Positions 40,920 to 43,170 of a stretch of DNA of 43,170 nt are shown here, piece by piece (positions within the stretch are counted from its first letter, which is position 1; each line of letters starts with the position of its first letter). The notes below the pieces were generated by a model. That model saw only the letters and a list, made by a program, of their open reading frames with translations, had not been told where the DNA came from and made no database searches. This DNA is from a virus, in the IMG/VR virus record IMGVR_UViG_3300037193_001703, positions 1 to 43,170 of that record. One strand, 5' to 3'. The translations under genes and the position numbers were made by a program.

Positions 40920-41327
40920 TCAGTGGATAGCGGCGCCATCGCCCAGCCGGGCCAGGCACAGCACGACGACGTAGAGGTGGGCGCTGTCGCGCTTCAGGCG
41001 CTCCAGCGGCAGGCTGCCGTGCAGCGTGCGGACAAGGCGGTGCATCGCCGTGTAGCCCACGCTGCGCAGGGGATGCACCAGCTCGGCCGGCATCACGCCG
41101 GTGCGGGCCGCATGGCGGAGCAGCACGACCGCGGCTTCACCGGGCAGCAGGGCCTGCTCGGGAGCTGGGTCACCGAAGGCGACGAGCAGGCGGCGCAGCT
41201 TGTCCAGCAGGGCCGGGCCCGTGGCGCCGAGCTCCAGCGCGAAGAGCATCGCCTTCGCCGCGGCGTCGATGTCTGCGACGTTCGGGCCCGGCGACAGGAA
41301 ATAGCTGATGTCGGCGACGCTGCTCAT
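40920..41327 (-). CDS. Unknown protein between RusA and packaging genes
   Basis: A 135-residue, Leu/Ala/Arg-rich helical protein (AAAKAMLFALELGATGPALL; LLVAFGDPAPEQALLPGEAA; SVGYTAMHRLVRTLHGSL). It is coupled to rusA by a 4-nt overlap. In lambdoid phages the equivalent place often holds the late regulator or an antitermination protein, but nothing here resembles Q. Left unassigned. Confidence 0.65.
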   Translation of the reverse strand: MSSVADISYFLSPGPNVADIDAAAKAMLFALELGATGPALLDKLRRLLVAFGDPAPEQALLPGEAAVVLLRHAARTGVMPAELVHPLRSVGYTAMHRLVRTLHGSLPLERLKRDSAHLYVVVLCLARLGDGAAIH

Positions 41328-42001
41328 GCTGCGGCCCCGAGCAGGTCCAGCTGCGGCCGCTCGACCTGCAGCTGCTCCACCGTGACGACGACGCGGGCGC
41401 CCTCCTCGTCTGGCTCCATGCGCTCGGACGAAAGGCGCCGCACCCACGCGTCGTCTTCGAACAGCACGCCCTTGAGGCTGTCGAGCAGCACCTTGTTGGC
41501 GTTGTCCAGGTCGATGCACTGCACGCTGTCGTCCCAGGCCGCGCCCAGCTTGCGCTGGCGGGCCTTGAAGTCGAGCGGCCGATGCGGGTAGAGCTGCACG
41601 GTGATGGCAACGCGGCCGGGCAGCGGGTGGTACACGCCCACGCCGATCGCGATGTCCAGCACCGTCTTGCGGTAAGCCTTCGCCTCGCTCGTGACGTAGA
41701 CGATGGGCATCGGCTTGCCGCGCACCGGCATGACCCGCGAGGCCCAGTACCGGTTGGCGCTGATGGGGTACGGGAGGATCAGCTTCTTTGTCCCACCCGC
41801 GCGAGGGACTGGGATGGACGCAGCGCCAGCGGAGTCCTGTCCCTGTCCCGCTTGTCCCACTGTCCCGCTTTGTCCCACCCGGTTTTGTCCCCCCGGGACA
41901 ACCGGGACATCCCAGACGGAGTCTGGGCGCGCGCGCACGAGGTTGTCCCGGTCGTTTGTCCCGGTGTTTTGTCCCGATTCGGCGATTTTTTGTCCCGCCA
42001 T
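41324..42001 (-). CDS. rusA: RusA-like Holliday junction resolvase with iteron-encoded extension
   Basis: A 225-residue protein whose RusA domain starts near residue 74 (LILPYPISANRYWASR) and carries the acidic active-site set in QCIDLDNANKVLLDSLKGVL (Asp164, Asp166, Lys170) and EDDAW (Asp183, Asp184). RusA cleaves four-way junctions to free branched DNA for packaging. E. coli RusA has only about 120 residues; here the first 73 form a low-complexity Gly/Gln/Val/Pro/Thr extension (SGQNTGTNDRDN; VGQSGTVGQAGQGQ) that is simply the translation of the TGTCCC/GGGACA iterons. ATG 42001 lies 2 nt after the replicative ATPase stop. Confidence 0.9.
   Translation of the reverse strand: MAGQKIAESGQNTGTNDRDNLVRARPDSVWDVPVVPGGQNRVGQSGTVGQAGQGQDSAGAASIPVPRAGGTKKLILPYPISANRYWASRVMPVRGKPMPIVYVTSEAKAYRKTVLDIAIGVGVYHPLPGRVAITVQLYPHRPLDFKARQRKLGAAWDDSVQCIDLDNANKVLLDSLKGVLFEDDAWVRRLSSERMEPDEEGARVVVTVEQLQVERPQLDLLGAAA
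41789..41996. repeat. Iteron array of 13 TGTCCC motifs, candidate replication origin
   Basis: TGTCCC starts at 41789, 41838, 41844, 41853, 41861, 41871, 41886, 41944, 41957, 41970 and 41991; the inverted form GGGACA starts at 41895 and 41904. That is 13 copies of a 6-mer in 208 bp. A 7-bp palindrome arm pair (TTGTCCC / GGGACAA around CCC, 41885-41901) and a second dyad (CCCAGAC-GGA-GTCTGGG, 41911-41927) mark the middle. The array lies inside the rusA N-terminal extension next to the replicative ATPase gene, like the iterons inside lambda O. Confidence 0.75.
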
Positions 42002-42003
42002 GG

Positions 42004-43134
42004 TCAGTCCTTTTTGAGGGTTATGACGATGCCGGCGGCCACCTCGATGTAGCCGTGTTGCACCGCCCAGGCCTTCGCGCGGTTGAACACGCGCTTGCGG
42101 CTTTCGGGGTTCTCGATGCCGCACTCGTCGCCGAAGACCTTGCGCAGTTCGGACTCCTTCATGCCGTTCTGCACGAGCGTGAGCAGCAGCTGGTTCTTGC
42201 CGACGCGTCCGGCCTTGGCCTCGACGCGCATGGCCTCCTCGACCTCTTCGGCGCTGGTGAGGTGGCGAGCCACCAGGGACGTGACCTCGTCGCCGTCCTC
42301 GTCGGTGCCGAGCCGGAACTTGCTGAGCGAGAAGGTGACGTCGTCGAAGGTGTCGCCGTCCTTCTGCTTGCTGCAGCTGACGGTGGCCAGCATTTCCTTC
42401 TCGTCGCGGAAGACGCCCAGCAGGAAGTCGACGTTGCCGCGGATCGCGCTGGAGCCGCGCGGCCGCTCGGTGGCCATGTGGCCGCTGTGGTGCAGCACCA
42501 GCACGGCGCAGGACCACAGCGCGCGGAAACGGGCGCCCAACTCGCGCAGGTACGCGGCCACCTCCGCGGCGCTGTTCTCTTCGCCTGCAAAGGTCTGCGA
42601 CAGCGTGTCCACCACCACGAGCGCCGGCGTCTGGCCGATGGCCTGGGCCGCGTCCACGACGCGCCAAGCCTCGCTGCCGAGATCGACAGCCACGGGCACG
42701 ACGGTGAAGAGCTGGCGGATGTCGCTCCAGCGAAGATTGCGGGCCCGGTGCCACGCGTCGATGCGCGGCCAGAGGCCGGTGCCGCCCTCGGCGGCGATGT
42801 ACATCACGCTGCCCTTGTTCGTGCGCCTGCCGAGCCATGGCAGGCCGTGCGCGACGTGCAGCGCGGCGTCCAGGGCGATGAAGCTCTTGAACGTGCCGGA
42901 GCCGCCGAACAGCATGCCCAGGCTCTCGGCCGGAACCACGTGCTTGATGAGCCAGCGGATGGAGTGCGAGGCCTCCTGCAGCGCGTCCAGGCGCAGCAGC
43001 GGCACCCGGCGGTCAGGCAGCTTGCGCTGTTGCTCGCGCTGCAGCTCGGCGAACTTCTCTTCGACGTCCGACAGCAGCGTGTCTACGGGCACGCTGGTGC
43101 CGTTGAACGCCATGGTGGCGATCTCGTCAGTCAT
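42004..43134 (-). CDS. RepA-like replicative ATPase (hexameric helicase type)
   Basis: A 376-residue ATPase. Walker A is FGGSGTFKSF (residues 76-85), Walker B ALVVVDTLSQ (171-180), and a later VLVLHHSGHMATERPRGSSA is the conserved sensor-type segment of the RSF1010 RepA/KaiC-like ATPases often encoded by phages and plasmids. The C-terminal 100 residues are charged and helical and may bind DNA or the iterons. It is the first large gene of the early minus operon and should drive replication. ATG 43134 is chosen because it begins a normal MTDEIATM sequence; the open frame continues to the window edge without a better start. Confidence 0.85.
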   Translation of the reverse strand: MTDEIATMAFNGTSVPVDTLLSDVEEKFAELQREQQRKLPDRRVPLLRLDALQEASHSIRWLIKHVVPAESLGMLFGGSGTFKSFIALDAALHVAHGLPWLGRRTNKGSVMYIAAEGGTGLWPRIDAWHRARNLRWSDIRQLFTVVPVAVDLGSEAWRVVDAAQAIGQTPALVVVDTLSQTFAGEENSAAEVAAYLRELGARFRALWSCAVLVLHHSGHMATERPRGSSAIRGNVDFLLGVFRDEKEMLATVSCSKQKDGDTFDDVTFSLSKFRLGTDEDGDEVTSLVARHLTSAEEVEEAMRVEAKAGRVGKNQLLLTLVQNGMKESELRKVFGDECGIENPESRKRVFNRAKAWAVQHGYIEVAAGIVITLKKD

Positions 43135-43170
43135 CGAGATGACGCGGCGCAGGATGGAGCGGCTGCGCAC

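Follow-up and report, generated by a model that had tools for sequence, protein, structure and literature searches.

A GGGACA iteron array behind a RepA-like ATPase gene as a candidate phage replication origin, with NNNACA counterparts in many related phages

The window, meaning the whole stretch of 43,170 bases analysed here, is an IMG/VR virus record that also encodes tail, portal and terminase genes. At one end it carries a RepA-like (AAA_25) replicative ATPase gene (42004..43170, minus strand; PF13481, E = 5e-33) that runs off the contig at its 5' end, followed on the same strand by a gene for the Holliday junction resolvase RusA (rusA, 41324..42001), in which the Pfam RusA domain begins at residue 77. 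An iteron array (41789..41996, minus strand) of 13 exact TGTCCC/GGGACA copies, with homologous arrays in relatives, starts 7 bp after the ATPase stop codon. Eleven copies are direct, reading GGGACA on the coding strand and TGTCCC on the plus strand (at 41789, 41838, 41844, 41853, 41861, 41871, 41886, 41944, 41957, 41970 and 41991), and two are inverted (41895-41900 and 41904-41909). On the minus strand, four direct copies come first; after them come an alternating GC tract, a dyad, the two inverted copies and the remaining seven direct copies. A first-pass annotation of this DNA had named the neighbouring gene as a RepA-like ATPase and had described thirteen hexamers in 208 bp against roughly 0.1 expected, eleven pointing one way and two inverted. 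The Pfam match agrees with the former, and our recount gives the same orientations, with the inverted pair and the dyad between direct sub-arrays, and 13 copies against 0.093 expected (P ~6e-24, or ~5e-21 after a rough scanning correction). The entire record holds 23 copies, including these 13, and GGGACA is its top-ranked hexamer for clustering. Residues 2-71 of the RusA N-terminal extension are the translated array, and the direct copies are spread over every reading frame (3, 1 and 7 copies), so the conserved thing is the DNA and not a peptide repeat.

The core dyad, CCCAGAC-N3-GTCTGGG (41911..41927), is evident in the sequence and has counterparts in relatives (CCCTCCTAAAGGAGGG and similar dyads). 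Its spacer on the minus strand is TCC (CCCAGAC-TCC-GTCTGGG), and an A and then the two inverted iterons follow. Adjoining the dyad is the alternating purine-pyrimidine tract CGCGCGCGCACG (41928..41939), which is kept in part of the window's clade, where a CGCGCGC-type tract and a C-stem/G-stem dyad precede the inverted iterons (for example CTCGCGCGCGCACGCCCTCCTAAAGGAGGGA). Across the window GC skew is weak, and it does not help to place an origin.

The ATPase core belongs with the RecA-like AAA_25 proteins, and its nearest folds are DnaB, RSF1010 RepA and Rad51 (Foldseek). A complete relative (L127, 93% identical) consists of a DnaB N-domain, AAA_25 and a C-terminal winged helix, and some ATPase relatives carry an N-terminal Prim-Pol. 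In the window, AlphaFold models and Foldseek place a C-terminal winged-helix domain at residues 303-387 of P0002 (42007..42261, minus strand), with predicted helices at residues 325-332, 338-348 and 354-370 and predicted strands at 374-377 and 380-383. The third of these helices (42058..42108, minus strand) is the predicted recognition helix, on the evidence of AlphaFold and covariation, and it opens with residues 358 and 359 (42091-42096, minus strand), which covary with the iteron motif. Pfam has no match for this domain, either in the window or in L127; a sequence comparison with the PDB found no credible relative, and Foldseek returned generic winged-helix matches only, none with E < 0.1. 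Guided by the models, we propose the domain as the one that binds the iterons.

The overall comparison took in more than 100 related phages. A pattern scan of viral contigs for GGGACA arrays beside related ATPases gave at least about 20 loci, a set selected for the motif, and relatives were therefore gathered by protein alone. When 12 diverse ATPases were aligned, no part was sufficiently conserved to scan a database with, and narrower ATPase alignments were used; one alignment behind the protein search was built from array carriers. The protein-only set comprised 93 non-redundant loci among the matches listed, and its counts are those of samples. An array was called where at least five copies of one NNNACA hexamer lay between -150 and +600 of the ATPase stop (750 bp). 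Such an array was found at the ATPase stop in 71 of the 93 loci among the matches listed, compared with 11 of 1224 control windows of equal size taken elsewhere in these loci. Among these 71 (again among the matches listed), GGGACA accounts for 35, GTGACA for 19, CGGACA for 5, GCGACA for 3, CCGACA and GTTACA for 2 each, and the rest are five single cases; the median start is 3 bp past the stop, with a span of about 150 bp and 9 copies. The array may lie in the ATPase 3' end, in the intergenic region or, as in the window, in the next gene, and the sole gene common to the loci is the ATPase, which was also the search query. A clear NNNACA array is absent from about a quarter of the relatives among the matches listed, some of which have other repeats and some none, and no array was seen in phages of Mycobacterium, Gordonia, Caulobacter and Shigella, whose ATPases are more distant. 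The motif is not confined to the window: GGGACA, GTGACA and other NNNACA arrays occupy the same place in many phages. The first-pass annotation had also named relatives without TGTCCC clustering as evidence against an origin; several relatives are literally of this kind, but in them the locus is occupied by a GTGACA array.

Further repeats were seen in individual phages. At L285 and L286 the hexamers CATACA and CAGACA (14 copies each) lie downstream of the ATPase gene. In MW202711 (L273) ten GGGACA copies are found not at the repA stop codon but about 1.2 kb downstream of repA, past several small reversed genes. In Burkholderia phage BcepGomr (L280) an AT-rich repeat, AAAATAAAT, replaces NNNACA downstream of gp62, and a hairpin, CCCCTTTAGGGG, also lies 3' of this RepA-like helicase gene. 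GGGACA clusters in other gene neighbourhoods as well. Within about 600 bp 3' of VapE-type primase-helicase genes there are 14-24 copies (L261-L265, L269 and L270), mostly inside CTGGGACA; the VapE C-terminus is unlike the AAA_25 one, and this is seemingly an independent second use of the hexamer. In a set of related phages (L008, L042, L044, L061, L066, L068, L077, L095 and L103) GGGACA arrays adjoin what is probably a small terminase gene, into whose 5' end they partly extend, and may be a packaging site and not an origin. A group of low-G+C phages (33-38%; L027, L029, L038, L071, L081, L090 and L100) has a six- to eight-copy GGGACA cluster adjoining conserved small genes.

A strict core-element pattern, written after the arrays had been inspected, matched 13 of 36 arrays and 4 of 811 control windows. 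The element is present among GGGACA and GTGACA carriers alike, so the dyad is kept while the iterons switch; L141 and L164, for instance, have the dyad and GC tract in common and differ in iteron and helix. With the iterons masked, palindromes were found in 29 of the 71 arrays compared with 167 of 1784 controls (among the matches listed), and G+C drops by about 9 points where the arrays begin.

The iteron motif varies together with the predicted recognition helix. In a comparison of GGG with GTG carriers over 336 columns that ignored kinship, residues 359 (p = 4e-8) and 358 (p = 5e-8) ranked top. In carriers of GGG, position 359 is Lys or Arg and position 358 mostly Lys; in carriers of GTG, 359 is mostly Gln and 358 Arg. 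Kinship was controlled with a tree that left the C-terminal 95 residues out, on which the motif changes at least 12 times; nine independent pairs associate Gln-359 with GTG by 8:0 with one tie (p = 0.008), and in the tree-controlled scan of 1270 column-residue traits residues 358/359 take ranks 1-4 and residue 362 takes rank 5. Arg at helix position +2 was considered as a reader of the ACA half (raw p = 1e-7) and was rejected, its 3.4:0 independent pairs not being significant. GTGACA in place of GGGACA is seen at L128 and L130 (62% identical ATPases). L177 and L224 also differ in motif. Their ATPase cores are 98-100% identical, but the C-terminal domain and array show a steep drop in identity and a change from GGGACA to AGCACA; identity recovers downstream.

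The helix rule as coded was applied to a held-out set of 26 further non-redundant loci among the matches listed, and was right in 6 of 19 cases for GGG and 2 of 3 for GTG. All correct predictions have a canonical helix; they include Rhizobium phages 16-3 and RHph_X2_25, which have an Arg-Gln helix and GTGACA in 15 and 16 copies, respectively, and one locus (L287) from a contig that the pattern scan had already covered. Among the misses the helices are non-canonical (KKLWWRV, SDKRKRWKE and the like), and these loci have other motifs (TCTACA, GTCCGA) or no clear array. The canonical-helix condition was set after the misses had been seen, and the held-out test is therefore supportive, not strict. 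A GTCCGAA array at the same place accompanies the helix SDKRKRWKE in L312, L324, L327, L347 and their relatives, and forms a further motif class. The pairing of array and ATPase is strongly supported.

Phage iteron origins are marked by closely packed, short direct repeats next to a replication gene, and the window has such repeats. Our reading of the comparison, with a probability of about 0.8, is that the array is the core of a replication origin and that the GGGACA copies are binding sites for the C-terminal winged helix of the adjacent ATPase. The ATPase would be a RepA/DnaB-like ring helicase, its DnaB-type N-domain being judged from the complete relative. The direct repeats would be docking sites for its C-terminal domains, as would the inverted pair next to the GC tract and dyad. 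These domains would bring helicase rings to the DNA, which the rings would open at or near the array. Initiator and helicase would thus be one protein, and the dyad is perhaps a priming or melting site. The sequences themselves show the array, its fixed position behind the ATPase stop in most relatives, the conserved dyad and the covariation. Direct binding and origin function are what we infer here, as are the order of loading, the opening, and the roles of the dyad and GC tract; the covariation ties the ATPase domain to the array and does not imply that replication starts there, and the array may instead be a loading, copy-control or operator site. An iteron origin with the ATPase C-terminus as a possible binder had already been put forward in the first-pass annotation, and this part gains strong support from the comparison; the points that change concern RusA, the 135-residue protein and the uniqueness of the motif.

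The main competing explanation is that the ATPase C-terminal domain binds the array as an operator, copy-number or incompatibility site and that replication starts elsewhere. The covariation suits any DNA-binding role, and the array does lie past the ATPase gene, where the next gene begins. We nevertheless consider a regulatory site unlikely: the array comes after the ATPase gene rather than before it, its 9-20 copies, core dyad, GC tract and G+C dip are more origin-like than operator-like, and the proposed binder is a replicative ATPase. The SaPI and SCCmec helicases, which have the same layout, also bind iterons at known or putative origins (PMC7581432).

It seems very improbable that another protein (a host factor, RusA or the product of the 135-residue gene) binds the array and that the ATPase merely travels with it. 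GGGACA arrays adjoin VapE-type replication genes with unrelated C-termini, so GGGACA by itself does not identify its reader, but a host factor would leave the motif shifts that track ATPase residues 358 and 359 unexplained and would not account for close relatives with different motifs. As for the two genes of the window, rusA had been described as hosting the array and the 135-residue protein as a possible binder. Of the 93 relatives among the matches listed, 10 have a RusA core like the window's and one has the 135-residue protein, and the array tracks the ATPase stop, lying elsewhere in intergenic DNA or the ATPase 3' end. RusA is thus incidental and the 135-residue protein is not a general binder; both were rejected as general readers on these counts, and the two genes are bystanders. 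Chance, an effect of composition and a peptide repeat rich in glycine can all be dismissed, in spite of local Gly-Gln/Gly-Thr repeats in the RusA extension, in view of the clustering statistics, the three frames and inverted copies, the control-window survey, and the similar arrays that relatives carry at the same place outside rusA.

Iterons lie inside the O gene in phage lambda, and in satellite phage P4 the alpha protein unites helicase, primase and C-terminal winged-helix origin binding, with short iterons. P4 alpha is mentioned as a fused helicase-primase initiator in PMC7145576; it resembles the proposed system in these traits and differs from it in helicase family and motif. The lactococcal TP901-1 and Tuc2009 replisome organizers have sites inside the initiator gene (as cited in PMC8965321). 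These systems and lambda O resemble the window in having iterons within the coding region of a replication module. Their sites lie in the initiator's own gene, whereas here the array follows the ATPase gene and is in the next gene, rusA, by accident; the proposed initiator is also, unlike theirs, a ring ATPase.

The closest layout is that of SaPI Rep/ori and SCCmec Cch2, with iterons directly 3' of the helicase gene. In PMC7581432, the C-terminal domain of SaPI Rep is described as recognising iterons directly 3' of its own gene, which unites helicase and initiator in one protein as proposed here for the ATPase; the repeats bound by Cch2 also lie downstream of its gene, and this protein is discussed with the D5 helicase family (PMC7581432). 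The window's protein is AAA_25/RepA-DnaB-like (PF13481), and would be SaPI-like in its working without being a member of the D5-like family; it also differs in its phage carriers and in a hexamer with a lineage-specific first half. RSF1010 RepA (1G8Y, 1NLF) is similar in the core of its helicase ring, with Foldseek TM-scores of up to 0.71 on the target. It relies on a separate protein, RepC, to melt the origin at which it is loaded (PMC8965321), whereas the ATPase described here has a winged helix fused to it. In pRN1 the minimal replicon extends 166 bp past the end of the replication gene, and ORF904 has primase activity (PMC4234260); needed DNA 3' of the replication gene, and the Prim-Pol of some relatives, recall our loci, but pRN1 is an archaeal plasmid with one large stem-loop and no recognised iterons (PMC4234260). 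A search of the open literature found no relevant paper linking TGTCCC, GGGACA or GTGACA to an origin, iterons or phage.

On balance, we favour the view that these loci represent a family of phage origins that is widespread and apparently undescribed. In such a family a RepA/DnaB-like ring ATPase would have its own origin-reading winged helix, a simple NNNACA code would relate helix to iteron (Lys-Lys type to GGG, Arg-Gln type to GTG), and domain plus array would form an exchangeable cassette. If so, the replication origins of many uncultured and cultured phages, including Rhizobium phage 16-3, could be located from sequence, and the reader of the origin would be named, with two residues expected to set its specificity. 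A ring helicase would then find its origin without a separate initiator, and origin and reader would be exchanged naturally as a module.
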